NCBI RefSeq assembly: GCF_025264665.1
Contig: NZ_CP073697.1
Span: 4,011,501 to 4,075,500 of the forward strand
DNA from: Edaphobacter flagellatus
Lineage (GTDB): Bacteria > Acidobacteriota > Terriglobia > Terriglobales > Acidobacteriaceae
DNA length: 64,000 nucleotides
Direction of reading: 5' to 3'
Shown here: one piece after another, positions 16,788 to 32,160 of the stretch
Layout of the letters: each line of letters starts with the position of its first letter
How positions within the stretch are numbered: position 1 is the first letter of the stretch
Translations under genes and position numbers: made by a program
Notes under the pieces: model-generated
The model's input: only the letters and a program-made list of their open reading frames with translations
Databases searched by the model: none
What the model was told of the DNA's origin: nothing

Positions 16788-16794
16788 TGCCAGC

Positions 16795-17058
16795 CCCCTC
16801 CCCCCGGGGTGGCTATATAAGTTGCTTGGTTTCAAAAAGTTGAGCGATTTGCACAGGCTAAAATATTGAGGGCAGGGGAGTTAACTCTAAAAATATAGAT
16901 TCTAAATGAGTTAGCCTCCAGCAAGGGCTGGAGGCTAACTCATTTCTTTCTGATCTGTATTAAGTGTAGCAAAACGGGTAGGGGGAATCGGCACTTTAAA
17001 ACGCCTCTATTTTATTTGAAATGAATGATTTGCGATTTCAGGGGGCTTGACAGGATTT
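16795..17058. repeat. Dispersed intergenic repeat, full copy 1, with 19-bp hairpin
   Basis: The stretch between the alpha-galactosidase stop and the next gene is a copy of an element found again at 31900-32160. Shared landmarks in order are a CCCCTCCCCCC run, AAAATATTGA, a short inverted repeat (16878-16887), CTAAAAATATAGATTC, a perfect 19-bp hairpin (16904-16922 with 16927-16945, loop AAGG), GATCTGTATTAAG, GAATCGGCA and GGGGGCTTGAC. No coding frame is seen. The whole 348-base gap up to 17136 holds only this element and the start region of the next gene. Confidence 0.85.
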
Positions 17059-17135
17059 TGGTGGAGAGCCGAGGAGGCCAGATACGACTTCCGCCAGATG
17101 CATGGGATAAAGAGAGCAGCTAGGATGAGAGCACA

Positions 17136-18116
17136 ATGACATGTGGTAGCGATATAACGACGAAGGGATGCTGCACGCCTGCGTCAGAACGTGATGTTCC
17201 GGTGGCCCAGGCGGACAGTGGTGTGCACTCCGCTTCTGAGGTCTCATCCGCGACGCTTGAGGGGATGATTGCTCTGCCGGGCGGAAGTTTTTTGATGGGG
17301 ACGGACTATGCGGAGGCGTTTCCGGCGGACGGTGAGGGGCCTGTCCGTGAGGTGACTGTGGATGCATTTCGCATCGACCGCTATCCGGTGACGAACAAGC
17401 GGTTCGCCGAGTTTGTTGCTGCGACCGGGTACAAGACCGAGGCGGAGCAGTATGGCTGGTCTTTCGTCTTCTGGTCGCATGTGCCGAAGGACCGTTTTTA
17501 CGAGATGGTAGAGGATACGGTTGCTGCGGCTCCGTGGTGGTGCAAGGTGCGAGGCGCGTACTGGAATGCTCCGGAGGGGCCGGGTTCGAATGTTTTGAAG
17601 CGTGGCGATCATCCTGTCGTTCACGTTTCGTGGAACGATGCGGTGGCCTTTTGCCAGTGGTCGGGGCAGCGATTGTTGACGGAGGCGGAATGGGAGTATG
17701 CAGCGCGCGGCGGGCTGGAGCAGAAGCTGTATCCGTGGGGAGACAAGCTGCGGCCCAATGGAGAGCATCGCTGCAACATCTGGCAGGGTGAGTTCCCGAA
17801 GGTGGATACGGCAGACGATGGCTATGCGGGGACGTGTCCGGTCGAGGCCTTTCCAGCGAACGAATATGGTTTGTTTTCGATTACAGGAAATGCCTGGGAG
17901 TGGTGCGCGGACTGGTTCGATACGGCGTTTCATCGCGCGGCGACGGCGGCAACGAGGATCAACCCCAAGGGGCCGCCGACAGGTACGGGGCGGGTGGTGA
18001 AGGGCGGTTCGTTTCTCTGCCACAAGTCGTACTGCAATCGGTATCGGGTTGCGGCGCGCAGCTCGAACACGCCGGACAGCTCGACCTCGAATATGGGATT
18101 TCGTTGCGCCTTGTGA
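17136..18116 (+). CDS. Formylglycine-generating enzyme (sulfatase-modifying factor family)
   Basis: The 326-residue protein has the FGE-sulfatase fold signatures MIALPGGSFLMGTD, RLLTEAEWEYAARGG, ITGNAWEWCADWFD and a C-terminal SNMGFRCAL. The two copper-binding catalytic cysteines are present as Cys295 and Cys300 in FLCHKSYCNRYR, so this looks like a true formylglycine-forming enzyme and not only a structural relative. It would oxidise a cysteine in a client sulfatase. The first 40 residues contain several extra cysteines (TCGSDITTKGCC) and no clear signal peptide. No sulfatase gene lies in the window. TAGGATGAG precedes the ATG. Confidence 0.88.
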   Translation: MTCGSDITTKGCCTPASERDVPVAQADSGVHSASEVSSATLEGMIALPGGSFLMGTDYAEAFPADGEGPVREVTVDAFRIDRYPVTNKRFAEFVAATGYKTEAEQYGWSFVFWSHVPKDRFYEMVEDTVAAAPWWCKVRGAYWNAPEGPGSNVLKRGDHPVVHVSWNDAVAFCQWSGQRLLTEAEWEYAARGGLEQKLYPWGDKLRPNGEHRCNIWQGEFPKVDTADDGYAGTCPVEAFPANEYGLFSITGNAWEWCADWFDTAFHRAATAATRINPKGPPTGTGRVVKGGSFLCHKSYCNRYRVAARSSNTPDSSTSNMGFRCAL

Positions 18117-18219
18117 GGGAGCGGATACATCGCTACCCTATCGCAGGATTTCCGGCGGAATGGCTGGCACAATATTGCAGTAAAGGATAAAAAATAAGTC
18201 GAAAGTGTGAGGAGAAAGT

Positions 18220-19131
18220 TTGGCGTTCTATCTGGCGTTGGATGTGGGCGGTACGAAGACAGAGTATGTACTGGCGGATGAGACGAAGGAGCTGGCGCGC
18301 GTACGCGGAGGCACGATCAAGCGGATGCGAACGGATGCGGCTTCGGCGCAGGAGAACCTGGACAAGGCAATTGCCGAGCTTGAGGCGCAGAGCGGCATCG
18401 ATCTGAAGTCTGTTACGCGGAGCTGCGTTGGCGCCGCTGGAATCACGGTTCCGATGGTGACGGAATGGATTGAAGAGGCATTTTCCAAACGCATCGGCGG
18501 CTCGCTGATTATGGTGGGCGATGTTGAGATTGCGTTGGACGCTGCGTTCTTTGGCGGTCCGGGTGTGCTGGTGATGGCAGGCACGGGCTCGAATGTGGCA
18601 GGGCGGACGACTTCGGGCAAGCTGATGACGGTTGGCGGCTGGGGGCCAGCGCTTGCCGATCAGGCATCGGGAGCGCGGATCGGGCAGCAGGCGCTGCGGG
18701 ATACGTTTCTTGCGATCGATGAGCAGAAAGAAACGATGCTGCTGCCGGCGATTCTTAAGTTATGGGACCTGCCGGATGCGATGGCCATCGTGGACTATGC
18801 CAACAGAATTCCTTCACCCGATGTGACGAAGCTGGCTCCGGTCGTGGTGGCATGCGCGGCTGCGGGCGATGCTGTGGCGTCGCGGGTGCTACGCCGTGAG
18901 GCCGAAGAGCTGGGGCATCTTGCGCGGGTGATGATTGATCGTGTGCGACGCGAAGAAGGAAGATCGGACTGGATACCGGATCTGGCGTTTACAGGCAGCA
19001 TTCTGGAGCACGTCGATGCTGTGCGAAACGGGATCGTCGAGGTGCTGCGCGTGGATTTTCCCGGCCTGAAGGTGCTGCCGGGGGTTGTCGATCCGCTGCA
19101 GGGTGCGCTGTGGCGAGCACGTCACGGCTGA
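18220..19131 (+). CDS. N-acetylhexosamine kinase, BadF/BadG/BcrA/BcrD ATPase family
   Basis: The 303-residue protein begins with the ASKHA phosphate-1 motif LALDVGGTKTEYVLAD and contains GPGVLVMAGTGSNVAG and GGWGPALADQASGARIG, as in bacterial GlcNAc kinases. It probably phosphorylates N-acetylglucosamine or a related sugar in the cytoplasm. The start is a TTG preceded by GAGGAGAAAG at good spacing, and no better start exists. It lies between FGE and the convergent GH125 gene. With NanE at 24075 it suggests uptake and use of amino sugars released from glycans. Confidence 0.82.
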   Translation: MAFYLALDVGGTKTEYVLADETKELARVRGGTIKRMRTDAASAQENLDKAIAELEAQSGIDLKSVTRSCVGAAGITVPMVTEWIEEAFSKRIGGSLIMVGDVEIALDAAFFGGPGVLVMAGTGSNVAGRTTSGKLMTVGGWGPALADQASGARIGQQALRDTFLAIDEQKETMLLPAILKLWDLPDAMAIVDYANRIPSPDVTKLAPVVVACAAAGDAVASRVLRREAEELGHLARVMIDRVRREEGRSDWIPDLAFTGSILEHVDAVRNGIVEVLRVDFPGLKVLPGVVDPLQGALWRARHG

Positions 19132-19135
19132 GGTT

Positions 19136-20599
19136 CTACGGTTGCAGCAGCTCGGGGTGCGTTGCTGCAACCGTTCCAAGAAGCTCTCCGAAGAGCGTGT
19201 TGGCCCAGGCAAACCAGGCGCGCGTGAAGTTCTTCGGATCGTTTTTGAAGTAGCTCTCGTGCATAAAGCCGAAGCCCTGCGCGGAGCCTTTGAGCATGTG
19301 GAGCGAGCGGCGGATCTCGTCGGGGTTGCTGCTGGTGAGTGCATAGATGATCTGCGACATGGGCCAGATCATGTCGCGACCTACGTGCGGGCCGCCGATG
19401 CCTTCTCCTGCAGTGCCCTGGAAGAACCAGGGATTGCGCGGGCTCCAGCAGAAGGCGCGCGTGCGGTTGTAGAGCGCAGGATCGGGAGAAGCGTCGAGGT
19501 AGGGAAGGCCGAGCAGGCTGGGGACGTTGGCGTCGTCCATCAAGAGCTGGCTGCCATAACCGTCGACCTCGTAGGCCCAGATGGTGCCTTCAGGAGTTGT
19601 GGCAATGGCGTGTTGGTGCAGTGCCTGTTCGACCTCTTTGGCTAGAGAGGAAGCTTTGTTTGCAAGCTCATCGTCGTGCGCGACGGTGTGTGCCATCTCG
19701 GCGAGCTGGCGCAGCGAGGTGACGGCGAAGAGATTGGACGGCACGAGGAAGGGGAAGATGCAGGCGTCGTCAGAGGGGCGGAAGCCGGAGGCGATGAGGC
19801 CGACGGGTTTGACGGGATTGCCGAGGCCGGCTGCGGGCAGGGTCTCTGTCGAGGTGTCGGAGATGCGGCGGAAGATGTAAGGGCCGTCGCCATCTTTACG
19901 TTGCTGGACACGGAAGGTTTCGACGATCAGGTACATCGCCTGCAGCCAGCGCTGATCGAAGGGGCCAGTGTCGCCGGTGTGTTTCCAGTAGCCGTGCGAG
20001 AGGCGAATGGGGTAGCAGAGGGAGTCGACTTCCCACTTGCGCTCGCCGACGCCGCGCTTGAGGTCGGTCTTGTCCTTGAGGCTCCATGGGAGAGGCGGGG
20101 CATTGAGATCGGCCATGATGGCGTTGGCGTAGGGGTCGATGAGGATGCAGCGTGCCTGGCGGCGGATGACCCCCTCGAGGAGATCGCGGAGTGGGCGGTC
20201 GTTCTTCGCCAGAGGAAGGTAGGGCCAGACCTGTGCGGAGGAGTCGCGGAGCCACATGGCGGCGATGTCTCCGGTGAGGACGGCGGTGTCGGGCTTGCCC
20301 TGGTAGGTGCCGGGCTCAACGGTGGTGTCGAGTGTGTTGGGGAAACAGTTGACGAAGAGTGCGCGCAGGGCAGGATCGGCGATGCGCGTCTGGCGTTCGG
20401 TGAGGAACTGCTCGACGGCGGTGCTGCGGAATTTGCGCTGGGCGACAGGGGGACGTCCGTGGGCCATGTCCCACGGGGCTTTTACGGGTGGCACCTCGAC
20501 GGAGGATTGCGCCTCGGCGAGAGCGGCTTCGCCGGCTGTGTTTACGAAGAGGGCGGCTGCGCTGGTGCTGTAGAGAAAATTTCTTCGGCTGATGGTCAT
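19136..20599 (-). CDS. Exo-alpha-1,6-mannosidase, glycoside hydrolase family 125, Tat-exported
   Basis: The 487-residue protein starts MTISRRNFLYSTSAAALF, a twin-arginine signal, which fixes the start at 20599 although open frame continues upstream. GH125 features include FPNTLDTTVE, TGDIAAMWLRDSSAQVWPY, CILIDPYANA, RPSDDACIFPFLVPSNLF and LLMDDANVPSLLGLPYL. The enzyme removes alpha-1,6-linked mannose from N-glycan cores or yeast mannan. It diverges from the GH92 mannosidase gene with a 119-base gap that must carry promoters for both. It converges with the kinase gene 4 bases away. Confidence 0.9.
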   Translation of the reverse strand: MTISRRNFLYSTSAAALFVNTAGEAALAEAQSSVEVPPVKAPWDMAHGRPPVAQRKFRSTAVEQFLTERQTRIADPALRALFVNCFPNTLDTTVEPGTYQGKPDTAVLTGDIAAMWLRDSSAQVWPYLPLAKNDRPLRDLLEGVIRRQARCILIDPYANAIMADLNAPPLPWSLKDKTDLKRGVGERKWEVDSLCYPIRLSHGYWKHTGDTGPFDQRWLQAMYLIVETFRVQQRKDGDGPYIFRRISDTSTETLPAAGLGNPVKPVGLIASGFRPSDDACIFPFLVPSNLFAVTSLRQLAEMAHTVAHDDELANKASSLAKEVEQALHQHAIATTPEGTIWAYEVDGYGSQLLMDDANVPSLLGLPYLDASPDPALYNRTRAFCWSPRNPWFFQGTAGEGIGGPHVGRDMIWPMSQIIYALTSSNPDEIRRSLHMLKGSAQGFGFMHESYFKNDPKNFTRAWFAWANTLFGELLGTVAATHPELLQP

Positions 20600-20718
20600 G
20601 TGAGAAAAGGTTCGTCGCTCCGCTCGTGCCATTGTGTCATATTTGCTTGTGCTTTCTGCTTTGCGTGAGAATGGTTGCGGATAGTAAACAGCCAACGAAA
20701 ACGGAAGATGGGGTAAGC

Positions 20719-23040
20719 ATGATCAGTCGCAGGAATTTTTTGCAGGGAAGCTCCGCTGCTTGCGTCGTAGGCGCAACGACGATGAACAAATTTGCCGGCG
20801 CTGCTGTGCTTGGACAAAAGGCGGATGATCCGCTTCGCTGGGTGGACCAGCGGATTGGCACGGGCGGGCATGGTCATTGCTATCCCGGTGCTTCGATGCC
20901 GTTTGGTGCTGTGCAGCTAAGCCCCGACACATTCAACGATGGCTGGGACTGGTGTTCGGGCTATCACGTTTCGGACGATTCGATTATGGGGTTCAGCCAT
21001 ACGCATCTGAGTGGCACGGGGTGCGGTGACCTGCTGGATTTTCTGGTGATGGCGGGAACTGGGACGGCACATCTTGTGCCGGGAGATCGACGGTTTCCTG
21101 AGAAGGGATATCGTTCTCGTTTCGATCACGCGGACGAGCAGATGGAGCCGGGTTACTACTCGGTGCTGTTGAAGGACTACGGTGTGCGCGCAGAGCTGAC
21201 TGCGACGGAGCGCGTTGGCGTGCATCGTTATACGTTTCCGGCAAGCGATAAGGCTTATCTGATTCTCGACCTGCAGCATGGATATGGGCCAGGAGAAGGG
21301 CCGGTGACTTCGGCTGAGCTGCGTCAGGTGGCGGCGGATACGCTTGCGGGAGGGCGACGGACTTCGGCATGGGGGAAGGACCGCCATGCGTACTTCACGA
21401 TGAAGGTGTCGAAGCAGCCGGAGCGGATTGTGTTTTTTGTCGATGACAAAGAGGTTGCTGCGCCCGCCAGCAACGAAGATCTTCGCGGCAAGAATTTGAA
21501 GTGCGTTCTTTACTTCAAGACGAAGGCCAAGGAGACGATTCTGGTCAAGACGGGTATCTCCGGTGTGGATGCGGATGGCGCCGCGAAGAATGTGGCTGCC
21601 GAGGTTTCCGCGTGGGAGTTCGACAAGGTGCGTGCTGCCGCTCGCGAGGCATGGCGCCGACAGCTTTCGAAGGTGCGCGTGCAGGGCGCGAACGAGACGC
21701 ATAAGAAGATTTTTTACACGGCGCTGTATCACATGTCGCTGGGGCCGACGTTATTTGACGATGTGGACGGGCGATATCGCGGCATGGACAACCAGGTCCA
21801 TACGCTGGCGGCGGGAGAGCACAATTTCTCGACGTTCTCGTTGTGGGATACCTTCCGTGCGGCGCATCCTGCCTACACGCTGATTGAGCAGGAGCGTGTG
21901 CCGTTGCTGGTGAACACGTTGATCCGGATGGCGGAGCAGAGCCCGGAGGGCATGCCGGTCTGGCCGCTGATGTCAACTGAAACGGGAACGATGACGGGCT
22001 ATCATTCTGCCGCGGTGATCTCGGAGGCGTGCAATAAGGGCTTCAAGGGCGTCGATTATGAGAAGGCTTACGGGCTGATGATGAAGCGCGCCATGGTCGA
22101 TGACTTCCGCGGCCTGAGCTACTATCGCAAGCTCGGTTATATTCCGGCCGACAAAGAGGGCGAGTCGGTATCGAAGACCTTCGAGTACTGCTATGACGAC
22201 TGGTCGATTGCGCATGTCGCGAAGAAGCTTGGTAAGACCGATGATGCTGCGATGCTGCGTAAGCGCTCGACCAACTATCGCAACTACTTCGATGCGTCGG
22301 TGGGCTTTATGCGTCCTAAGCTCGAAGACGGAAGCTGGACATCGCCGTTCCGGCCGATCGATATGGGCCACTCGAAGAAGTGGCGCGACTATACGGAATC
22401 AAACGCATGGCAGACGACGTTTGGTGTGCAGCATGACGCGGCTGGCCTGATTCAGCTCTTCGGTGGCAACGAGCCGTTTGTGGCGAAGCTGGATTCTCTG
22501 TTCACCGTTCCGTCGGATCTGCCGGAAGATGCTCCGCCGGATATTGCCGGTATGGTGGGGCAGTATGCGCATGGCAATGAACCTTCGCACCACATTTCGT
22601 ATTTGTATGTTTATGCCGGTGCACCGCACAAGACGCAGGCCCGCGTTCGCAGCCTGCTGGAGACGATGTATGCGGCATTGCCGGATGGCATGCAGGGCAA
22701 TGAAGATGTGGGACAGATGTCTGCCTGGTATCTGCTGAGTGCACTTGGTTTCTATCCGGTCGATCCGGTCAGCGGCAACTATATTCTGGGCTCTCCGTTA
22801 TTCGAGGGAGCGACGGTCGATCTGGGACATGGCAAGAAGCTTGAGATTGTGGTGGAACGAAAGGATCCGTCGCATCGGTACATCCAGTCGTTCTCGCTGA
22901 ATGGACAGCCGCAGCAGCGTGCCTGGTTCAACCATGCCGACATAGCGCAGGGAGGCAAGCTGGTCTTCACGATGGGTGCAGAGCCAAATCTGAAGTTTGG
23001 TTCGGATGCCGCATCGATTCCTCCGTCGCTGACGCTGTAG
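20719..23040 (+). CDS. Alpha-1,2-mannosidase-like enzyme, glycoside hydrolase family 92, Tat-exported
   Basis: The 773-residue protein begins MISRRNFLQGSSAACVVG, a twin-arginine signal, which selects the ATG at 20719 (preceded by GATGGGG). GH92 signatures follow: VDQRIGTGGHGHCYPGASMPFGAVQLSPDT, interrupted here only for description, then GFSHTHLSGTGC, LWDTFRAAHPAYTL, GNEPSHHISYLY and NEDVGQMSAWYLLSALGFYPV. Calcium-dependent GH92 enzymes trim alpha-mannose from N-glycans or mannoproteins. It pairs divergently with GH125. Both being Tat substrates suggests that they fold in the cytoplasm before export. Confidence 0.93.
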   Translation: MISRRNFLQGSSAACVVGATTMNKFAGAAVLGQKADDPLRWVDQRIGTGGHGHCYPGASMPFGAVQLSPDTFNDGWDWCSGYHVSDDSIMGFSHTHLSGTGCGDLLDFLVMAGTGTAHLVPGDRRFPEKGYRSRFDHADEQMEPGYYSVLLKDYGVRAELTATERVGVHRYTFPASDKAYLILDLQHGYGPGEGPVTSAELRQVAADTLAGGRRTSAWGKDRHAYFTMKVSKQPERIVFFVDDKEVAAPASNEDLRGKNLKCVLYFKTKAKETILVKTGISGVDADGAAKNVAAEVSAWEFDKVRAAAREAWRRQLSKVRVQGANETHKKIFYTALYHMSLGPTLFDDVDGRYRGMDNQVHTLAAGEHNFSTFSLWDTFRAAHPAYTLIEQERVPLLVNTLIRMAEQSPEGMPVWPLMSTETGTMTGYHSAAVISEACNKGFKGVDYEKAYGLMMKRAMVDDFRGLSYYRKLGYIPADKEGESVSKTFEYCYDDWSIAHVAKKLGKTDDAAMLRKRSTNYRNYFDASVGFMRPKLEDGSWTSPFRPIDMGHSKKWRDYTESNAWQTTFGVQHDAAGLIQLFGGNEPFVAKLDSLFTVPSDLPEDAPPDIAGMVGQYAHGNEPSHHISYLYVYAGAPHKTQARVRSLLETMYAALPDGMQGNEDVGQMSAWYLLSALGFYPVDPVSGNYILGSPLFEGATVDLGHGKKLEIVVERKDPSHRYIQSFSLNGQPQQRAWFNHADIAQGGKLVFTMGAEPNLKFGSDAASIPPSLTL

Positions 23041-23119
23041 CGAGGGGGACCGAAGCGTAGAGGTCGTCAGAAGGATTCAAATCGGCAGTGCGGGTGGATT
23101 GTGCGATTCGTTGCGCGGT

Positions 23120-23971
23120 TTACTTTGCCTGCCGTTTCTTTTGCGTGCTGCTACGGATTGGCTTCCGGGTGGGCAGATCGTTGAGGTGAATCAACGCAGC
23201 GGCTGCGGTATAACGAACGATCTCTTTCGGGTTGTCGAGGTACATTTCTACGGTGCTTCGCGTGCCTGGATCGCCTCGCTGCGCGATGGCGGCCAGGGCC
23301 GCAACCTGAACCTGCCAGCTATTGTCTCTGCATGCTGCTTCAAGGGCGGCGAGAGATTTCGGGTCGGGATCTGCGGCCAGTATTCTGGCTGCGGCAGCTC
23401 GTATCGGCGAAACATCATCTTTGGTGAGCGAGCGAACGACGGTCAGGCCCAGGCCGCCGAAGGGAACAAAACCTACACCTTGTTCAAATCCAAATTGAGC
23501 GAGCTTCTGCGGATCCTTGAGCATCTTTTTCTGATCTTCCATCAAGCCACCACCGCTCTTTTTCTCGCCGGTCAGTACGGCGTAGAAGACGCCGTAGCCC
23601 AGGGAGTCGTCCATCGCGATAAGAGCACGCGCTGCTCCCAGTACAACGGGAGCTTCCTTATCGTGCTGAATGACTTCGGTGAGTTGGGGGATGGCGGACT
23701 TTGCCTTAAGGCGGCCGAGGGCATCGGTGGCTGCTTCGCGTACTTCGGGCTTCTCGTCCTTGAGTGCTTCGAGCGCGAATTGCGGTGCTTTCTGTTCCTC
23801 CGGCAGCAAACCGAGAAGCCGGACGGCGGCGGCGCGGCTTTCGGTGTTCTTGTCGGACAGGCCAGCCTGCAGTACTGTCCATGCCTGATCGAGGGATGCC
23901 TGCGGGTAGCCGATTCGAGTGAGGGCGATCAGTATGGCGAAGGAAAGCAGTCGGGAGCGCGGGATGATCAT
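23120..23971 (-). CDS. Exported HEAT-repeat protein
   Basis: The 283-residue protein has an N-terminal signal segment (IPRSRLLSFAILIALTRIGYPQA) followed by at least five HEAT-like helix pairs, such as DKNTESRAAAVRLLGLLP, DEKPEVREAATDALGRL and DDVSPIRAAAARILAAD. Such repeats bind other proteins. The start at 23971 follows an AAAGGAA Shine-Dalgarno sequence, so an upstream in-frame start at 23995 is not needed. It ends in a basic tail. It converges with the GH92 gene over a 79-base gap that holds no gene. The partner is unknown. Confidence 0.75.
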   Translation of the reverse strand: MIIPRSRLLSFAILIALTRIGYPQASLDQAWTVLQAGLSDKNTESRAAAVRLLGLLPEEQKAPQFALEALKDEKPEVREAATDALGRLKAKSAIPQLTEVIQHDKEAPVVLGAARALIAMDDSLGYGVFYAVLTGEKKSGGGLMEDQKKMLKDPQKLAQFGFEQGVGFVPFGGLGLTVVRSLTKDDVSPIRAAAARILAADPDPKSLAALEAACRDNSWQVQVAALAAIAQRGDPGTRSTVEMYLDNPKEIVRYTAAAALIHLNDLPTRKPIRSSTQKKRQAK

Positions 23972-24074
23972 GGAGGATTCCTTTGGAGAAGCCAAGGTAG
24001 TATACGAAACGATAAAGGCTCGTTATGCGCTTCGGCCGTCGACATGGCTTTCGGCATTCTGCTAAATAAGTTTC

Positions 24075-24782: not shown

Positions 24783-24792
24783 TCTGCGGCGA

Positions 24793-25584
24793 TTATTCGA
24801 TGGTTGTTGTTGGAACACGGATCAATGCTCGATAGCGATCGCCACGATATCGAGAGCACGCGATTTCGATCGGGACTTGTTCGGTTGTAATGATGACACG
24901 TGAGATGGAGAGAACGCTGGCGCGGCGGGGAATGGTCAGCAGCTCGGATTCTTCTTTGGTGGCCGGCAGCGCTTCGATGGTCTCGTCGGCCCAGGCGACA
25001 CGAACACCATAGTCTTCGCGAAGGGTGTAGTAGAGAGACTGCTTCGCAAAGTTGATGCGTTCGAGATGAGGGAAGGGGCTGAGAGGAATATGGGATTCTT
25101 CGAGAGCCATTGGGATGTCGTCTGCAAGCCGTAGGCGGCGGAGCTTCATGACGGAGGCTGCCGGCTCAATCCTGAGTGTTTCGGCGAGTTCGTCGGTTGC
25201 CTGGATGACGGTCTGCTCCAGCAGCTTTGAGCTGGGTACCATGCCGCGCTGCTTCATATCTTCGGTAAAGCCGCGCAGGTGCATGATGTTTTTTTCCATC
25301 TTTGGCCGGGTAACAAAGGTTCCACGGCCTTTCTGGCTGTGGGCGTAGCCTCGTGACTTGAGGCCATGCAGAGCCTGACGGGCAGTCATCCGGCTGACCT
25401 GATAGGAGCGTGCGAGCTCTTCTTCGGAGGCCAGCAGGTCGCCCTCGGCGAGGGCGCCGGATTGAATCTTCTCCATGAGTACGCGCTGAATCTGGTAGTA
25501 GAGGGGGACAAACCCGTGCTTGTCGAGTGGGTGCACTTCGGTGGCTGGCCGTGCCTGAGTTTTTGCTCTGTGATGGTCTGGCAT
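24793..25584 (-). CDS. GntR-family transcriptional regulator, HutC/UTRA type
   Basis: The 263-residue protein has an N-terminal winged-helix domain (VPLYYQIQRVLMEKIQSGAL, EEELARSYQVSRMTARQAL, GRGTFVTRP), with about 20 extra residues in front. A UTRA effector domain follows, with LRRLRLADDIPMALEESHIP and LSISRVIITTEQVPIEIACSRYRGDRY. Regulators of this type sense phosphorylated sugars or amino sugars. It is divergent from the dehydrogenase-DUF993-isomerase operon and convergent with nanE, so it may control either or both. Repeated TATGAA motifs lie in the 260-base divergent gap. Confidence 0.9.
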   Translation of the reverse strand: MPDHHRAKTQARPATEVHPLDKHGFVPLYYQIQRVLMEKIQSGALAEGDLLASEEELARSYQVSRMTARQALHGLKSRGYAHSQKGRGTFVTRPKMEKNIMHLRGFTEDMKQRGMVPSSKLLEQTVIQATDELAETLRIEPAASVMKLRRLRLADDIPMALEESHIPLSPFPHLERINFAKQSLYYTLREDYGVRVAWADETIEALPATKEESELLTIPRRASVLSISRVIITTEQVPIEIACSRYRGDRYRALIRVPTTTIE

Positions 25585-25644
25585 GTACGTGACTTAGGCT
25601 GCTTCTCCCCTAAACCTCTCTGGCTGCGGTCATATTCCCTTACG

Positions 25645-25758
25645 TATGAAAAGCGGATTAGTTCCGTATGAAGGGAAAAGTATAGCCATATAGACAGATT
25701 TTAGAAAGCGTGTTGTTTCAGCCGGTTGTGCTGGCCTCTATGAAAGCGGCCTTTCATA
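25645..25758. promoter_or_regulatory. Candidate operator array for the GntR regulator
   Basis: The divergent gap holds TATGAAAAGCGG (25645-25656), TATGAAGGG (25667-25675) and a palindrome TATGAAAG-CGGC-CTTTCATA (25739-25758). The first and third share TATGAAA(A)GCGG. Their position between the regulator and the operon suggests binding sites, but this is inference from pattern only. Confidence 0.4.
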
Positions 25759-25844
25759 TATGATCCGGTCGTGGCTGTTTTTCGCCAAACCAGCGTCGCC
25801 TGTTCAGCGGGTGAGCCAAATATTAAAAATCAGGGGGAAGCCGG

Positions 25845-26993
25845 ATGCGGAAGATCGGCATCATCATGAACGGTGTGACTGGGCGCATGGGGACCAACCA
25901 GCACCTGGGCCGTTCGATTGCGGCGATTCGTAAGCAGGGCGGACTGGAGCTGCGCGATAAGACGGTTATCATGCCGGAGCCGGTGCTCGTAGGAAGAAAT
26001 GCCGGAAAGCTGGAAAAGCTGGCTAAGGAATGGGAGATCGACCATTGGTCGACCGATCTGAACGAGTGCCTGGCAAAGAAAGAGAATCTGATCTACTTTG
26101 ACGCGCAGTCGACGTTGCTGCGCGCCGAAAGCGTCAAGGCTGCCCTCAAGGCGGGCAAGCATATTTACTGCGAAAAGCCGCTTGCGGGAACTCTGGAGGA
26201 GAGCCTGGAACTTGCTCGCGAGGCGGCAAAGGCTGGAGTGAAGAACGGGGTCGTTCAGGACAAGCTGTTTCTGCCCGGGCTGCTGAAGTTAAAGCAGGTG
26301 ATCTCGAGCGGCTTTCTCGGCAAAGTGCTCTCAGTGCGCGGAGAGTTTGGCTATTGGGTCTTTGAAGGGCCGACGCCGCCTGCGCAACGCCCTTCGTGGA
26401 ACTACCGTAAGGAAGATGGCGGCGGCATCATCCTCGATATGTTTCCTCACTGGCAATATGTACTGGAGAATCTCTTTGGCCGCATTACAGGCGTAAGCTG
26501 CATCGCAAGAACAACGATCCCGACACGTATAGATGAGACGGGGGCCAGTTATAACTGCACGGCAGACGACGCGGCCTATGCGACGTTTGAGATTGCGGGT
26601 GGTGTTGTTGCGCATATTAACTCGTCCTGGGCAACGCGCGTCAATCGCGATGAGCTGCTGGAGCTGCATGTCGATGGAACGGAGGGAAGCGCTGTGGCCG
26701 GTCTTCGCGAGTGCAAAGTTCAGCCGCGCGTGGCGACGCCGAAGGCGATCTGGAATCCGGATATTCCTAATCCCATCAAGTTCCGCGACGGATGGCAGAC
26801 GGTTCCGACTACGGGTGCTGAAGAAAATGCCTTCAGGATTCAGTGGGAGATGTTTTTCCGCCACGTGCTTGAGGATGCGCCGTTCCCGCACGGATTTCTT
26901 GAGGCCGCGAAGGGAGTGCAGCTTGCTGAGGCAGGCATCCAGTCGTGGAGCGAGAGACGCTGGGTGGAGCTGCCCGAGCTGACGTTGAACTAA
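25845..26993 (+). CDS. Gfo/Idh/MocA-family NAD(P)-dependent sugar dehydrogenase
   Basis: The 382-residue protein starts with a nucleotide-binding stretch (RKIGIIMNGVTGRMGTNQHL), which is a variant of the usual GxGxxG. It contains the family motif YCEKPLAGTLEESLELA around the catalytic lysine of EKP, and YRKEDGGGIILDMFPHWQYVLE in the C-terminal sheet domain. Such enzymes oxidise or epimerise sugars, inositols or their derivatives. GGGGGAAG precedes the ATG. It leads a three-gene operon with the DUF993 protein (28-base gap) and an isomerase. The substrate is unknown. Confidence 0.85.
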   Translation: MRKIGIIMNGVTGRMGTNQHLGRSIAAIRKQGGLELRDKTVIMPEPVLVGRNAGKLEKLAKEWEIDHWSTDLNECLAKKENLIYFDAQSTLLRAESVKAALKAGKHIYCEKPLAGTLEESLELAREAAKAGVKNGVVQDKLFLPGLLKLKQVISSGFLGKVLSVRGEFGYWVFEGPTPPAQRPSWNYRKEDGGGIILDMFPHWQYVLENLFGRITGVSCIARTTIPTRIDETGASYNCTADDAAYATFEIAGGVVAHINSSWATRVNRDELLELHVDGTEGSAVAGLRECKVQPRVATPKAIWNPDIPNPIKFRDGWQTVPTTGAEENAFRIQWEMFFRHVLEDAPFPHGFLEAAKGVQLAEAGIQSWSERRWVELPELTLN

Positions 26994-27021
26994 GACTATC
27001 TTTGAGATCATTGATTGACCC

Positions 27022-28161
27022 ATGAGCCTGCAAATTCGTCTTCCGCTCGCTGAAGGACTTTCTAACTATCGGCTGAATGAGGCTGGCCCGCTCCCCGTGA
27101 TTGCGGGGCAACCTCCAACATTGCGCGTGGCCTATGCGGCAGCGCATGTTGTCGTCGATCCGCTGCGTCCGCAGGTGCTCGACATGGATGCGACGATGGC
27201 GTTTCGACGCTATCTCTGGTCGTTGGGTTTTGGCGTCGCGGAGGCGATGGACACCTCGCAGCGCGGCATGGGGCTTGATTGGGCGTCGGCGCGTGAGTTG
27301 ATTCGGGTCTCTGCCGGGGAACGCGGTGGGGAGATCGCGTGTGGAGCGAACACCGATCAGCTTGACCCTGCGCAGCAGGCAACGATCGATGAGGTTATCG
27401 CTGCCTACGAGGAGCAATGCGAGACGATCGAGGCAGCGGGCGGACGCGTCATTTTGATGGCTAGTCGCGCGCTTGTGAAGTGCGCGAAGACTCCTGAGGA
27501 CTATGCCAGGGTCTATGGAAGGCTGCTGCAGGGGCTGCGTCAGCCGGCGATTCTGCATTGGCTTGGCGAGGCCTTCGATCCGCAGCTTCGCGGCTACTGG
27601 GGAAGTAGGAATGTTCCCGATGCGATGGCGACATGCCTCCACATCATTCGCGAGAATCAGCACAAGGTCGATGGTGTGAAGATCTCGCTGCTTGATAAGC
27701 AGCAGGAGATCATCATGCGGCGGCAGCTACCGCATGGTGTCAGGATGTATACCGGCGACGACTTCGATTACGCGGAGTTGATTCGCGGCGATGAGGTCGG
27801 GCACAGTGATGCGCTGCTGGGTATATTTGACGGCATCGCACCTGCGGCGGCATTGGCTCTGCGCGCTCTGGATGTGGGCGATCTCGTCCAGTATGAGGAG
27901 CTGCTCGCACCGACGGTTCCGCTCTCGCGGCATATCTTTCAGGCGCCAACGTACTTCTATAAGACGGGCCTGGTTTTTCTTGCTTATCTCAACGGACGAC
28001 AGCGTCACTTTGTGATGCTGGGCGGTCAGCAGAGCGCACGCTCGATTACGCACCTTGCCGAGCTGTTCGTACTGGCGGATAAGGCACGTCTCCTCGTTGA
28101 TCCTGACCTCGCATGTCATCGCATGAGGCTGGTGCTTGAGCTCGCCGGAGTGGAAGGCTGA
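27022..28161 (+). CDS. DUF993 family protein (dihydrodipicolinate-synthase-like TIM barrel)
   Basis: The 379-residue protein resembles the DUF993/dihydrodipicolinate synthase family. Visible landmarks are FRRYLWSLGFGVAEAMDTSQRG, a possible Schiff-base lysine in KVDGVKISLLD, YTGDDFDYAELIRGD, GHSDALLGIFDGIAPAAA and FQAPTYFYKTGLVFLAYLNG. Members are thought to cleave or condense keto-acids or keto-sugars, but no reaction is assigned to this one. It lies between the dehydrogenase and the isomerase with a 1-base overlap to the latter, so all three probably act in one pathway. No good Shine-Dalgarno sequence precedes the ATG. Confidence 0.75.
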   Translation: MSLQIRLPLAEGLSNYRLNEAGPLPVIAGQPPTLRVAYAAAHVVVDPLRPQVLDMDATMAFRRYLWSLGFGVAEAMDTSQRGMGLDWASARELIRVSAGERGGEIACGANTDQLDPAQQATIDEVIAAYEEQCETIEAAGGRVILMASRALVKCAKTPEDYARVYGRLLQGLRQPAILHWLGEAFDPQLRGYWGSRNVPDAMATCLHIIRENQHKVDGVKISLLDKQQEIIMRRQLPHGVRMYTGDDFDYAELIRGDEVGHSDALLGIFDGIAPAAALALRALDVGDLVQYEELLAPTVPLSRHIFQAPTYFYKTGLVFLAYLNGRQRHFVMLGGQQSARSITHLAELFVLADKARLLVDPDLACHRMRLVLELAGVEG

Positions 28162-28970
28162 TGGCCGATCTCTCCAGACTGAGCTTCAACCAGATGACGG
28201 CGGGAAAGGCTTCGCTGGGTGACGTCGTCAAGGCTTGCGTGAAGCACAACGTTGGGTGGATCGGGCCGTGGCGTCATGCCGTCGGCGTGAATCCGCAAGC
28301 CGCAGCACAGTTGATTCGCAGCGCGGGTTTGAAGGTGTCCAGCCTGTGCCGCGGCGGTATGTTTCCTGCTGCTACGGCAGAAGAGCGTCGCCGTCGCATT
28401 GAGGACAATCTTCGCGCTATCGATGAGGCTGCAGCGATCGGCACCGATCTTCTGGTGCTCGTCAACGGCCCTGCTCCAGGACGCGATATCGATGGGGCGC
28501 GTCAGATGGTTGTTGATGGTATTGCCGCCGTTGCAGGCCATGCGGCGCAGAGCGGAGTACGGCTCGGCGTTGAGCCGCTGCATCCCATGTTTGCCGCTGA
28601 CCGTAGTGTGGTCGTGACTATGGGGGAGGCGAATGAGATTGCAGCTCGCTTTCCGGCGGGACAGGTTGGCCTGGTCGTCGATGTCTATCACATCTGGTGG
28701 GACCCGCAGGTGTATGCAGAGATCGCGAAAGCAGGTGACAGGATATTCGCGTTTCATGTGTCGGACTGGATCGTGCCGACTCCCGATTTTTTGATGGGAC
28801 GTGGCATGATGGGTGACGGTGTTATCGAGCTGCAGCGTCTACGGGGCGCCGCCGAGCGCGCAGGGTACAAAGGGCCGATTGAGGTTGAGATTTTCAATGA
28901 GGCGCTCTGGGCTCGGCCGGCGGATGAGATCGTTGGGCTTGTGGCGGAACGCTTTCAGGAGTTTGTCTGA
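28161..28970 (+). CDS. Sugar phosphate isomerase/epimerase, xylose-isomerase-like TIM barrel
   Basis: The 269-residue protein fits the AP-endonuclease-2/xylose isomerase-like fold: KHNVGWIGPWRHAVGVN, DLLVLVNGPAPG, RLGVEPLHPMFAADRS, VGLVVDVYHIWWDPQVYAEI, FHVSDWIVP and GPIEVEIFNEALW. Conserved Glu, Asp, His and Glu in these segments would bind a metal. Its ATG overlaps the TGA of the DUF993 gene. It probably isomerises the keto-sugar made by the dehydrogenase. The precise substrate is not readable. Confidence 0.8.
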   Translation: MADLSRLSFNQMTAGKASLGDVVKACVKHNVGWIGPWRHAVGVNPQAAAQLIRSAGLKVSSLCRGGMFPAATAEERRRRIEDNLRAIDEAAAIGTDLLVLVNGPAPGRDIDGARQMVVDGIAAVAGHAAQSGVRLGVEPLHPMFAADRSVVVTMGEANEIAARFPAGQVGLVVDVYHIWWDPQVYAEIAKAGDRIFAFHVSDWIVPTPDFLMGRGMMGDGVIELQRLRGAAERAGYKGPIEVEIFNEALWARPADEIVGLVAERFQEFV

Positions 28971-29013
28971 AAAGCCGGCCGTACGAATCCCTAGACGTGA
29001 TAGAGATTAGGAC

Positions 29014-30678
29014 ATGAGAGCGCGATGGTCTGAACGGGTGGCAGTTTTGCTTCTTCTGTTGGCTGTAGTTCTGCCGGCAGTGTCGCAGACAAAGCGGACG
29101 GCTTTTCCGGCAGTCGTCATGGCTCCGGTTCAGGCTAGATTTCAGCCTGCTCCTGTCAGGGTCGACAATCGATCCATCATTGAAATCTCCTGGGGCTTTG
29201 GCAGTATCAGCCCTGAGGTTCGCGCCCGGGCGATCTCTGAGCGGCTCGACAAGCTTGCGCGGGATACATCGCAAGCCGTCCATTTCACCATCAATGAGAC
29301 GGACACGAGCACGGACATTATGGAGGACGACCTCGTCATCGCATCGGTCTTCGATGGCGATGCGGCTGCTGCGGGTGTCTCACGGACTGCGCTTGCGAAC
29401 CAGTGGCTGACGGCGCTGAGTGGAGCGGTCAATCAGTATCGCGCCGAGCACAGTCGCGAGCGACTGCTGTTGCGTATTGGACTGACGGTTCTGGTGCTTG
29501 TCGTGACGCTGGCTCTATTGTGGCTGCTGGTGCCGCTTACGCGCTGGCTCGCAGATGTAACGGCGCGTTCGGTCTTCGACCGGCTGGCTCACTCTCGCCG
29601 TCAGAGCTGGTCTTTGATCGATACGAAGGAGCTGAATGGCTTGCTTCGGCTTGTCTTCAGGACAGTGCGCCTGGCGGCTTCGGTCTTCGTTCTCTATCTT
29701 GCGTTCCAGATTTTGTTTTCTCTCTTTCCGCAGACTCGCCCGCTTGGCGAACGGATGCTCGATGGCGTTTTGCGGCCCGCGGAGCAGTTCGGACGGGCGG
29801 CGTGGAACAGTGCTCCTTCGCTGGTCTTCATTCTGATCATCGCGCTGGTCTGTCGTTATGTTCTGCATCTTGTCTCCTTTGCTTTTGCCCGCATTGGCGA
29901 AGGGCAAGTACGCATTGAAGGCTTCAGGCCGCAGTGGGCACCAGTCACGTCCAGGCTGGTGAGTCTTGCGCTGATTCTGCTGGCTGTTCTGATTGCTTAT
30001 CCATATATTCCCGGGTCGGAGTCGGCGGCGTTCAAGGGCTTTTCGCTCTTTCTCGGAGTGCTGGTCTCGCTGGGATCGACGGGCATGGTTGCGAATGTTT
30101 TCAACGGCATTGTGCTGACGTATATGGACTCGTTTCAGACAGGCGATTTTATCCAGATCGGCGAGACGCAGGGATATGTAGAGTCGACTTCTTTGTTTGT
30201 TACGAGGCTGCGTACGCGACAGCAGCGGGTTGTGACGATTCCAAATGCTCAGGTGCTGAGCAGCCAGATTACGAACTTCAGTACGGCGGCGACGAACTCG
30301 CTGACGCTTTCGACGACTGCGGGTATCGGTTATGACACGCCGTGGCGACAGGTGGAGGCGATGTTGCTGGGCGCGGCGCGGAATACGCGGACGGTGCGCC
30401 AGACGCCGCCTCCGTTCGTGCTTGAGGTGTCGTTGAACTCGTTCGATATCACTTATGAGCTGACTGTCTTTCTGACGGGTGAGGTTCCGATTAATGTTGT
30501 GCGGGCTGAGCTCAACCGCAACATTCTGGATGAGTTCAATCAGTACGGTGTGCAGATTATGACGCCGTCGTATGTGGCTGATCCGGCCAAGCCTGCGGTT
30601 GTGGCTCCGGAGAACTGGTTTGCGGAGCCTTCGGAGAAGCCGGCTGCAAGTGAAAAGAAGCCCGATTTGCAGCCGTAA
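29014..30678 (+). CDS. Mechanosensitive ion channel, MscS family, with large N-terminal extension
   Basis: The 554-residue protein has a signal-like N-terminus (VAVLLLLLAVVLPAVSQ), a periplasmic region to about residue 150, several membrane helices, and the MscS core near residues 340-520. The pore helix and following beta domain are seen in LGSTGMVANVFNGIVLTYMDSFQTGDF and VVTIPNAQVLSSQITNFS. MscS itself is about 286 residues, so this is one of the larger family members. It should release solutes on hypo-osmotic shock. The C-terminal tail is Pro/Lys-rich. It stands 43 bases after the isomerase operon and could be read through from it. Confidence 0.85.
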   Translation: MRARWSERVAVLLLLLAVVLPAVSQTKRTAFPAVVMAPVQARFQPAPVRVDNRSIIEISWGFGSISPEVRARAISERLDKLARDTSQAVHFTINETDTSTDIMEDDLVIASVFDGDAAAAGVSRTALANQWLTALSGAVNQYRAEHSRERLLLRIGLTVLVLVVTLALLWLLVPLTRWLADVTARSVFDRLAHSRRQSWSLIDTKELNGLLRLVFRTVRLAASVFVLYLAFQILFSLFPQTRPLGERMLDGVLRPAEQFGRAAWNSAPSLVFILIIALVCRYVLHLVSFAFARIGEGQVRIEGFRPQWAPVTSRLVSLALILLAVLIAYPYIPGSESAAFKGFSLFLGVLVSLGSTGMVANVFNGIVLTYMDSFQTGDFIQIGETQGYVESTSLFVTRLRTRQQRVVTIPNAQVLSSQITNFSTAATNSLTLSTTAGIGYDTPWRQVEAMLLGAARNTRTVRQTPPPFVLEVSLNSFDITYELTVFLTGEVPINVVRAELNRNILDEFNQYGVQIMTPSYVADPAKPAVVAPENWFAEPSEKPAASEKKPDLQP

Positions 30679-30704
30679 TCGATGCAATTTGTGTCGATGC
30701 GTTT

Positions 30705-30716
30705 TACCATAGAGAG
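30705..30716 (+). promoter_or_regulatory. Candidate leaderless promoter -10 box (TACCAT) for the flavoprotein reductase
   Basis: TACCAT lies exactly 6 bases before the ATG at 30717. Only a weak AGAGAG sits between them. The position would place transcription start at or next to the start codon. Confidence 0.3.
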
Positions 30717-31892
30717 ATGAGCGAAGTTCTGGAGCAGCAAGCGAACGCAGGGGCGGGGCACGCCCAAAAGTACACGCGGAACAATCCGTACCAGTCGAAT
30801 GTCAATGTCAACTACCTTCTGACGGCTGAGGGTTCGGAGAAGGAGACGCGTCACGTCGAGCTGGCGGTTGAAGCGGGCATGACGTATACGCCGGGCGACG
30901 CGGTTGGCATTATTCCGGAGAACCGTCCTGAGGCGGTCGCGGATGTGCTGAAGGCGCTGAGTTATAAGGGTGACGAGCGCGTTCTGGACCACTACAAGGT
31001 TGAGATCTCGCTGGAAGAGGCGCTGCGCACGCGTCTTGGAATCGGCAAGCTGGCGCGCGGCAGCGTGGGACAGTATGCAAAGCTGGCTCCGAACGTCGAA
31101 GGGCTTCAGGTTCTGACCGGGCCTGACAATCGCGCCCGCGCTGAGGAGTATTGCTGGGGCCGTGAGTTTGTCGATCTGGCTACGGATTTTCCCGGCGTGA
31201 TCACCGATCCGCAGCAGTTGTTCAACGTGCTGCAGCGCCTGACGCCGCGCATGTACTCGATCTCGTCGAGCCAGAAGGTTCATCCTGACAGCGTGCACAC
31301 GACAGTGCGCGTGATTCGTTACGATTCGCACGGACGCGAGCGGCAGGGTGTGGCGAGCGGACATATTGGCGATCGCGCGGGTGAGGGAACGGTGATGCCA
31401 ATCTTCCTGCACTCGAACAACAACTTCCGCTTACCGGAGGACTCGAATGCTCCGGTGATCATGATCGGGCCGGGAACCGGTATCGCGCCGTTCCGCGCGT
31501 TTCTTGAGGAGCGCGAGGCGACGGGCGCGAAGGGCAAGAACTGGCTGTTCTTCGGCGAGCAGCGCGAGAAGATGGACTTTCTGTATAAGGACCAGCTTCT
31601 GGGCATGGTGAACAAGGGCGTACTGACGCATCTGCATACCGCGTTTTCGCGCGACCAGCACAACAAGGTATATGTGCAGGACCGTATTCAGGAGAACGCC
31701 AAAGAGGTGTTCGACTGGCTGGAGCAGGGCGCTTACTTCTATGTTTGCGGCGATGCGACGCGCATGGCAAAGGACGTAGAGAATGCTCTGCTGGATGCGA
31801 TTGCGAAGGGCTCAAACGGCACGCTGGAACATGCTGCCGAGTACCTGGCGACGATGAAGAAGCAGAAGCGCTATCAGCGCGACGTGTATTAG
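30717..31892 (+). CDS. CysJ-like FAD/NADPH flavoprotein reductase without flavodoxin domain
   Basis: The 391-residue protein matches the reductase half of sulfite reductase flavoprotein or P450-reductase-type enzymes. The FAD motif is RMYSISSS, the NADPH motifs are GPGTGIAPFRAFLEE and FFGEQ, then YFYVCGDATRMAKDVE, and the end is KRYQRDVY. The N-terminal FMN/flavodoxin domain of CysJ is absent, so electrons must pass to a separate partner. No CysI or flavodoxin gene is in the window. The N-terminus NPYQSNVNVNYLL resembles the start of the FAD domain. It is followed by repeat copy 2 directly after its stop codon. Confidence 0.82.
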   Translation: MSEVLEQQANAGAGHAQKYTRNNPYQSNVNVNYLLTAEGSEKETRHVELAVEAGMTYTPGDAVGIIPENRPEAVADVLKALSYKGDERVLDHYKVEISLEEALRTRLGIGKLARGSVGQYAKLAPNVEGLQVLTGPDNRARAEEYCWGREFVDLATDFPGVITDPQQLFNVLQRLTPRMYSISSSQKVHPDSVHTTVRVIRYDSHGRERQGVASGHIGDRAGEGTVMPIFLHSNNNFRLPEDSNAPVIMIGPGTGIAPFRAFLEEREATGAKGKNWLFFGEQREKMDFLYKDQLLGMVNKGVLTHLHTAFSRDQHNKVYVQDRIQENAKEVFDWLEQGAYFYVCGDATRMAKDVENALLDAIAKGSNGTLEHAAEYLATMKKQKRYQRDVY

Positions 31893-31899
31893 GCTCTGA

Positions 31900-32160
31900 C
31901 CCCTCCCCCCAGGGGGTGGTTGGGAAAGTTGAATGGTTTCAATGTCTTGCGAGATTTCAACAAGGCAAAATATTGAAATCAGAGGCTTTAAGCCTAAAAA
32001 TATAGATTCCAAACGAGTTAGCCCCGCTATGAAAAGACGGGGCTAACTCGTTTCTTTTGCGATCTGTATTAAGTTTAGCAAATCGGGCTGGGTGAATCGG
32101 CAGATTTTTTGACCTCTATTTCCTTTGGATTGTTGAGGTTGTGATTTAAGGGGGCTTGAC
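31900..32160. repeat. Dispersed intergenic repeat, full copy 2, with 16-bp hairpin
   Basis: This stretch is homologous to 16795-17058 along its whole length. It has the same order of landmarks: CCCCTCCCCCC, AAAATATTGA, a short inverted repeat (31983-31995), CTAAAAATATAGATTC, a hairpin (32011-32026 with 32038-32053, 11-nt loop), GATCTGTATTAAG, GAATCGGCA and GGGGGCTTGAC. The hairpin differs from copy 1 at matching positions on both arms. It begins 8 bases after a stop codon, as in copy 1. No coding frame is present. Confidence 0.85.

Follow-up and report, generated by a model that had tools for sequence, protein, structure and literature searches.

The DNA analysed here, referred to as the window, is a stretch of 64,000 nucleotides (64 kb) from Edaphobacter flagellatus (Acidobacteriaceae; contig NZ_CP073697.1, positions 4,011,501 to 4,075,500). 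Two of its intergenic gaps, at 16794-17054 and 31900-32160, each contain a complete copy of an element about 250 nt long, and a third, degenerate copy lies at about 55916-56099. An initial annotation made from the sequence had described the two gaps as homologous over about 260 bases, and BLAST bears this out (74% identity over query positions 1-257, E 1.6e-36). Genes were called with a custom codon-usage caller, not a published one. Copies were scored with R1, a sequence-only profile built from an alignment of 38 copies (mean column identity 68%), on which the copy numbers given below rest. Read on the plus strand, the element consists of a run of C (often CCCCCTCCCCCC), the units U1, U2 and U3, a variable hairpin with a run of T, a minus-strand motif resembling an extended -10 promoter element, the inverted unit U4 and a right end. 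The features of the three copies and their neighbours are as follows.

14556-16787, plus strand: GH36 alpha-galactosidase gene, left neighbour of copy 1 (Pfam)
16794..17054, plus strand: copy 1, full length (R1 170.4 bits, E 9e-52)
16794..16805, plus strand: C-run CCCCCTCCCCCC, left edge of copy 1, 6 nt past the stop codon TGA at 16785-16787
16816..16844, plus strand: unit U1 of copy 1 (aligned position; weak match)
16858..16884, plus strand: unit U2 of copy 1 (matrix score 25.4)
16888..16914, plus strand: unit U3 of copy 1 (matrix score 38.0)
16904..16949, plus strand: central hairpin of copy 1 followed by CTTT, resembling an intrinsic terminator (covariation)
16963..16970, minus strand: putative extended -10-like motif GCTACACT (5' to 3') of copy 1, directed leftward toward the galactosidase gene (column frequencies)
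17007..17033, minus strand: inverted unit U4 of copy 1 (minus-strand matrix score 20.5)
17041..17054, plus strand: right-end block GGGGGCTTGACAGG of copy 1 (alignment)
17136-18116, plus strand: open reading frame (ORF) with an FGE-sulfatase domain, right neighbour of copy 1 (Pfam)
30717-31892, plus strand: flavoprotein-reductase gene (FAD_binding_1/NAD_binding_1), left neighbour of copy 2 (Pfam)
31900..32160, plus strand: copy 2, full length (R1 171.1 bits)
31900..31910, plus strand: C-run of copy 2, 7 nt past the stop codon TAG at 31890-31892
31923..31951, plus strand: unit U1 of copy 2 (aligned position)
31965..31991, plus strand: unit U2 of copy 2 (matrix score 31.1)
31995..32021, plus strand: unit U3 of copy 2 (matrix score 36.5)
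32011..32058, plus strand: central hairpin and T-rich tail of copy 2
32072..32079, minus strand: putative extended -10-like motif GCTAAACT of copy 2 (column frequencies)
32116..32142, minus strand: block of copy 2 aligned to inverted U4, not among the matches scoring at least 9 (alignment)
32150..32160, plus strand: right-end block GGGGGCTTGAC of copy 2, then TT in place of AG
32292-32657, plus strand: PadR-family gene, right neighbour of copy 2 (Pfam)
54797-55807, minus strand: DeoC/LacD-like gene, left neighbour of copy 3 (Pfam)
about 55916-56099, plus strand: copy 3, degenerate (R1 match 55986-56099, E 2.4e-7), with one unit (55916-55942, score 22.6), the -10-like motif, AATCGGCA and GGGGCTTGACAGG

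Besides the hairpin, the conserved parts look like sequence motifs, namely the C-run, sites of about 27 bp, the -10-like motif and the right end, which reads GGGGCTTGACAG in the family and GGGGGCTTGACAGG in copy 1. In the alignment the ends CCCCCTCCCCCC and GGGGGCTTGACAGG are complementary only in their C/G run, and no further terminal inverted repeat was found. Three of the 27-bp sites are direct (U1, U2 and U3) and one is inverted (U4). A matrix of the E. flagellatus U2 and U3 units has a consensus close to YAAAATATTGATTNNAAAAGAGTTAG, and these two units are spaced by 30 nt in copies 1 and 2. U1 reached a median matrix score of -1.8 over the copies against -16.5 for shuffled letters, and for U4 the median was 2.4 on the minus strand, compared with -13.1 when the letters were shuffled and -15.1 on the plus strand. 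Between the hairpin and U4, copy 1 carries the block TTAAGTGTAGC-N16-ATCGGCA. When the whole window was scanned with the U2/U3 matrix, seven of the eight hits scoring at least 9 fell inside the three copies; the single weak hit outside them (score 10.0) gave us no reason to propose solitary operator sites. The units are AT-rich and their consensus has weak dyad symmetry (0.34-0.40 of positions complementary, against 0.27-0.30 for shuffled letters).

BLAST with copy 1 returned 48 matches in the genome of E. flagellatus (4.446 Mb, one contig). R1 gave at least 113 matches there at E<=1, at least 105 of them with E<1e-3; these are probably lower bounds, 150 of 618 candidates having been scored, and a few of the matches are two matches in one place. 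Therefore, the likeness of copies 1 and 2 is far beyond chance. Full copy counts were made for two further genomes, giving 128 R1 matches in E. aggregans (G049, an assembly listed with contamination 8) and 34 in genome G023. Moreover, R1 matched 36 of 37 genomes of the genus, E. flagellatus included, at E<=0.01, and one of 24 genomes outside it at the same threshold (E 1.2e-3). A family-wide search under stricter filters, with few candidates scored per genome and thus probably again a lower bound, matched at least 58 of 120 genomes from 45 of the 79 sampled genera (E<=1e-3). In most of 20 loci from other genera the same plan could be read by eye, some copies being truncated or lacking parts. 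The gaps had been proposed to belong to a dispersed repeat family, and so they do. No BLAST match of copy 1 was found in plasmids or phages, and a pattern scan of viral contigs yielded 11 hits that R1 scores at only 5-13 bits. We also noted one locus (L145, 2001-2393) with two copies back to back that share the same hairpin sequence, which suggests a local duplication, and a possible shorter subtype with one unit (GCAAARTATTC...AGTTATTNGGAC) and no clear U1 or U2, made up of E. flagellatus matches that begin at position 62-66 of the model (L119, L122, L124, L132 and L134 are examples).

For the analysis of context we aligned 101 E. flagellatus matches (threshold 1e-5; two loci and the third copy of the window were left out). 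Of these, 96 entered the context counts, five lying in loci that were too short, and 75 with a length of at least 225 were used for stop-codon adjacency and hairpin classes. From E. aggregans, 90 of the 128 match loci gave 92 matches, with 69 copies used for placement and hairpin classes and 71 for column frequencies and majority letters. All 96 E. flagellatus copies lie between called genes. Convergent genes flank 39 of them and divergent genes 8, while 24 and 25 lie between co-directional genes in the two orientations, counts that stand without a genome-wide background. The left edge often abuts a gene end: of 49 copies with a same-strand left gene, 38 have the C-run at a distance of -3 to 9 nt from the stop codon of that gene (median 3), and the right end comes that close to a facing stop codon in only 1 of 48 (median 110). 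E. aggregans gave the same picture, with 28/45 for the C-run (median 5) and 0/42 for the right end. The initial annotation had placed the start of both gaps 7-8 bases past a stop codon, matching the 6 and 7 intervening nt seen here, and the placement of copies at stop codons, which it proposed to check, holds for most copies with a same-strand left gene in both genomes. The element is not simply the 3' untranslated region element that it offered as one option, since 33 of 96 copies in E. flagellatus have their left gene on the other strand, a class with a larger share of weak hairpins. For left genes of that class the start codon is 10-45 nt away in 12 of 26 E. flagellatus copies and 7 of 24 E. 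aggregans copies.

The central hairpin is the part of the element whose pairing is clearly maintained. Its arms, AAATGAGTTAGCC/GGCTAACTCATTT in copy 1 and AAACGAGTTAGCC/GGCTAACTCGTTT in copy 2, differ by one T-A to C-G exchange, and a second paired exchange lies near the tip (CCTCC/GGAGG against CCCCG/CGGGG), both as originally described. We scanned all 5-pair helices with a permutation control over 85 non-redundant copies of the 93 long E. flagellatus copies, near-duplicates having been removed. Eight overlapping windows of the hairpin reached z 6.6-9.8, compared with a 99.9% quantile of 5.2 over 29,161 windows, and columns 124-135 pair through GC, AT and CG types, though not in every copy. 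Compensatory change in the main hairpin thus extends to the family, and no pattern of non-compensatory change was seen that speaks against it. Outside the hairpin 22 of the 29,161 windows exceeded z 5.24, the top three at 6.3, 6.1 and 6.1; leading windows were columns 22-49, 32-98 and 29-63, and some windows in the right half (columns 217-238, z 5.7) might represent a second helix of low strength. A structured element as a whole was considered and rejected, because RNAalifold on both strands and the helix scan leave only the central hairpin clearly above background. The units fared no better as RNA hairpins: covariation was clearly positive only for the E. flagellatus U3 at one axis (z 4.6), the other five of six sets giving z -5.3, -1.0, -4.0, 0.5 and 1.4. 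Mutual information over the copies was dominated by subfamily signal. The second short inverted repeat, which the initial annotation held to be kept, is present as GAGTTAACTC and AGGCTTTAAGCCT, but on different alignment axes, and its conservation is unsupported over the 85 copies (z -1.3 and 0.1; a neighbouring axis gives z 3.6); nor is there support for selection on the structure of the whole element, as had been supposed. Rfam gave no family at its gathering threshold over the window; a search with copy 1 listed ten hits at E<=10, mostly to the hairpin, and none came near its gathering score. Since only the central hairpin clearly covaries, it is a structure, and the remaining parts seem mostly to be sites recognised by their sequence. 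We conclude that the element is an interspersed intergenic cassette and not a gene for a structured RNA.

The hairpin and its T-run have the form of a terminator, a GC-rich stem followed by a run of T, though not in all copies. The plus strand carries the T-rich side: in copies with a same-strand left gene, the 8 nt that follow the stem contain 4.84 T on average and the 8 nt that precede it 3.12 A, while the remaining copies have 3.96 and 3.08. Moreover, hairpin strength differs with the direction of the left gene. Strong hairpins (score of at least 20) were found in 42 of 49 E. flagellatus copies with a same-strand left gene and in 14 of 26 with an opposite-strand one (75 copies; Fisher p=0.0046). 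The other motifs differ little between the classes (CTTGAC, 0.98 same-strand and 0.96 other-strand; -10-like motif, 0.82 and 0.73). This dependence of the hairpin on gene direction, set beside motifs that barely vary, fits selection as a terminator of the left gene. Covariation and context dependence support this step; that transcription ends here is what we infer from them.

In the right half of the element a minus-strand block reads T-Y-G-C-T-A-N-A-C-T, in which position -15 is T or C. Over 80 E. flagellatus copies G-14 is conserved at 97%, T-12 at 100%, A-11 at 99%, A-9 at 91% and T-7 at 100%, and over 71 E. aggregans copies the same positions stand at 89%, 96%, 99%, 86% and 96%. The block therefore has the TGNTANNNT-type conservation of a sigma70 extended -10 (G-14, T-12, A-11 and T-7), and we take the pattern to be that of such an element. 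Transcription from a promoter of this kind would run to the left, crossing the hairpin and the units before entering the left gene. The TTGACA of the right end was also considered as the -35 of a rightward promoter and rejected, as TANNNT follows 16-18 nt later in 0 of 88 copies.

We then compared copies between genomes for signs of descent and movement. Between E. flagellatus and E. aggregans, 37 best ortholog pairs were reduced to 27 by filtering, of which 18 had two long copies; at the 27 loci, matched through their filtered flanks, the element points the same way in both genomes. Copies at shared loci score higher with each other than with permuted partners (mean 134.6 against 114.3, z 5.0, 0 of 20,000 permutations). 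The excess is weak, but it indicates that some copies have been vertically inherited. In the 18 long pairs, 999 of 1154 core columns (those conserved in 115 other copies) and 594 of 1509 variable columns are identical. Concerted evolution between species, suspected by eye, was dropped as a main claim, as no more than 3 columns have different majority letters in the two species when each letter must reach at least 60%. The flavoprotein upstream of copy 2 is 91-93% identical to its counterparts in E. aggregans DSM 19364, Acidobacteriaceae KBS 146 and E. modestus. From 73 loci fetched for this gene, the sequence at the copy 2 position was read in 18 relatives; five share the element there (L150, L151, L152, L154 and L156), and in the remaining 13 R1 finds nothing there. 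Four of these 13 (L155, L160, L206 and L210) show by eye a plain hairpin and T-run terminator.

Other copies appear younger. Seven E. flagellatus loci (L052, L055, L056, L059, L061, L063 and L065) reach 87-96% identity in their top pairs; to the right of the element, members of this recent subfamily carry a GC-rich mosaic of other repeats (TTTTCGCTCCAGTTGGC..., GGCCAAGCCTGAAGGCTTGG... and ...GATGAAGCTGCGCCATGAGTGGGGCACC) that recur at other loci. One of the seven, L059, lies behind an FtsW/RodA-family gene that is present in 59 of 60 genus genomes. R1 matched this site in three of 30 species (E. flagellatus, G197 and, partially, G200), in each of which the element begins 0-4 nt past the stop codon, and it found no match in the four species nearest by gene identity. 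Either repeated gain or many losses would fit this distribution; for E. flagellatus a recent gain is the simpler reading. The earlier suggestion of a non-autonomous mobile unit thus gains some footing from an insertion at a site where 27 of 30 species give no R1 match. As to what might move it, the Y1 transposase (PF01797) had no match in the E. flagellatus genome and matched 5 of 14 control genomes, in a search confined to this transposase type; mobilisation by a REP-associated tyrosine transposase (RAYT), as for repetitive extragenic palindromes (REPs), was accordingly discarded. Spread by a reverse transcriptase (RT) was likewise discarded, the only PF00078 match in the genome sitting in a 3.7-kb stretch without the element. 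At that locus (L393, 1201-2403 and 18-1220, both minus strand) the RT is next to a protein that matches DrmC weakly (E 9.6e-7); the best PADLOC match of the RT is the general RT model, followed by RT_UG17.

Taken together, these data lead us to favour, with a probability of about one half, an occasionally moving cassette that would carry a terminator and a reverse promoter between protein-binding repeats and be kept at gene ends. The hairpin would terminate transcription of the left gene. Where that gene is on the same strand, the extended -10 would fire leftward and antisense to it; where it is on the other strand, the same motif could be its promoter, with a long leader. The four 27-bp sites flanking the putative promoter may bind a protein that controls it or moves the element, and copies would have spread by an activity supplied in trans and then been retained as useful at gene ends.

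A number of our own observations weigh against this proposal. The difference in hairpin class is only a trend in E. aggregans (33/45 same-strand against 12/24 other-strand, p=0.066), and the age of some copies may account for part of it. We found no convincing -35: copy 1 has TGCCGAT at 18 nt upstream of its -10 hexamer, and a TTGNCR-like -35 at that place would need a spacer of 19-20 nt. A long helix between U1 and U2, whose pairing looked persuasive by eye in individual copies such as L020 and L026, gives a weak signal (z 4.2 over 11 pairs). As regards descent, the true ortholog partner ranks from 1 to 87 of 92 and is mostly not the closest match, and wrongly paired members are as alike in their core columns (0.860, against 0.866 for true pairs; 0.355 in variable columns). 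The core therefore shows family constraint and not the descent of each pair, and together with the ranks this means that at some shared positions the element may have inserted in parallel. The conservation could also be due in part to neutral spread from active master copies. Finally, no target duplication was seen at the L059 locus, where element-free sites differ too much from the occupied one, and searches of the E. flagellatus genome for Y1 transposases and RTs did not reveal the mobiliser.

The alternative that survives best, though we consider it rather doubtful, is a purely selfish miniature mobile element whose insertion behind genes is tolerated, whose conserved blocks serve a transposase, and whose effects as terminator or promoter are incidental. 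Near-identical copies and the patchy L059 site would be expected of such an element, the repeated sites on both sides recall transposase-binding ends, and the 39 of 96 copies between convergent genes, again lacking a genome-wide background, recall BOX, RUP and SPRITE, which are reported as over-represented there (PMC3049150). However, the ends lack inverted repeats beyond the C/G runs in the alignment, no target duplication was seen and no Y1 transposase was found; hairpin strength tracks the direction of the neighbouring gene, and at shared loci the core is largely retained while the variable columns are near saturation. Unlikely, in our view, are sites that organise chromosome topology in the manner of bacterial interspersed mosaic elements (BIMEs), with nucleoid protein or gyrase bound between genes: AT-rich units with weak dyad symmetry, the near absence of covariation within them (positive only for the E. 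flagellatus U3) and the many convergent gene pairs would suit such sites, but the extended -10, the anchoring at stop codons and the direction-dependent hairpin are left unexplained. Weakest is a trans-acting structured RNA of about 200-260 nt, as the initial annotation had offered, which is very improbable even with the conserved sequence, one covarying hairpin and the weak U1-U2 signal, given that one helix only stands clearly above background, that no Rfam family reaches its gathering score and that a plus-strand hairpin with a T-run would end a plus-strand transcript in mid-element.

How does the proposed cassette of terminator, reverse promoter and protein-binding repeats compare with known elements? 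It resembles a miniature inverted-repeat transposable element (MITE) in being short, non-coding, multi-copy and intergenic, and departs from one in having no terminal inverted repeats. REPs and BIMEs are extragenic and often lie 3' of genes, as does our element, and they are associated with RAYTs, whereas the E. flagellatus genome has no Y1_Tnp match. Tn7-type elements have several repeated binding sites at their ends and insert just behind a gene. Repeated sites on both sides and a place near gene ends are seen here too; the difference is that many genes are targeted, and no transposition genes were noticed beside the copies read (Tns models were not applied). The enterobacterial repetitive intergenic consensus (ERIC) is one long inverted repeat, and by this description it is set apart from the present element, in which the hairpin occupies just the middle. 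A review of prokaryotic MITEs (PMC10969869) describes ERIC as intergenic, spread across related taxa and varying in copy number by lineage, and in these respects the present element is similar. REPs are reported to measure 20-40 bp (PMC3733652), and our element is much longer. Correia elements of Neisseria offer a closer likeness, being dispersed, non-coding and intergenic, with more than 120 copies per genome and a sigma70-like promoter on the element where ours has a promoter-like motif (PMC10969869). However, they are delimited by 26-bp inverted repeats (PMC3049150); the present element has none and has instead a left edge at stop codons and a central terminator-like hairpin. BOX and SPRITE of Streptococcus pneumoniae are modular and over-represented between convergent genes, SPRITE being terminator-like (PMC3049150, PMC10969869). 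Both differ from our element in make-up and phylum, and the 27-bp sites and reverse promoter-like motif set it apart from their descriptions. It therefore stands in kind beside Correia, BOX and SPRITE and is a distinct variant in make-up, with no terminal inverted repeats, stop-codon anchoring, a direction-dependent hairpin, a reverse extended -10 and three direct and one inverted 27-bp sites. Titles and opening lines of abstracts in the open-licence literature gave no description of such a repeat for Acidobacteriaceae; the Acido-1 motif (PMC2864571) was not compared directly.

Many soils are rich in Acidobacteria. The element is numerous, found across the family, tied to gene ends and apparently still moving in at least one lineage. 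With about 100 natural replicates in each of two genomes, it lends itself to asking whether a mobile repeat has become gene punctuation, and how such an element ends up a few bases away from a stop codon. A bolder version of the cassette, which we regard as improbable, is that a new type of mobilisation inserts regulatory cassettes immediately past stop codons, giving every host gene a terminator and a silenced antisense promoter between protein sites. If true, one lineage-specific factor acting in trans could control the 3' ends and antisense transcription of about 100 unrelated genes per genome in Edaphobacter and its relatives.

Two further observations were made at the loci examined. To the right of the copy 2 position, loci L150-L153 carry a dyad resembling ACGACTAATGTTGTC before the next gene, possibly its operator. 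Behind the stop codon of the ftsW/rodA-like gene, L366 and many of L362-L392 share a conserved block (TTAGTGCAATACTA ... GTAGATGCC ... AAAAGGCCGGCCAGGCGAGAG ... CGTTGGCCGGACAGG). The block has no Rfam match at the gathering threshold in L366, and in many of the 30 Edaphobacter loci it looks like a promoter followed by a conserved RNA gene.

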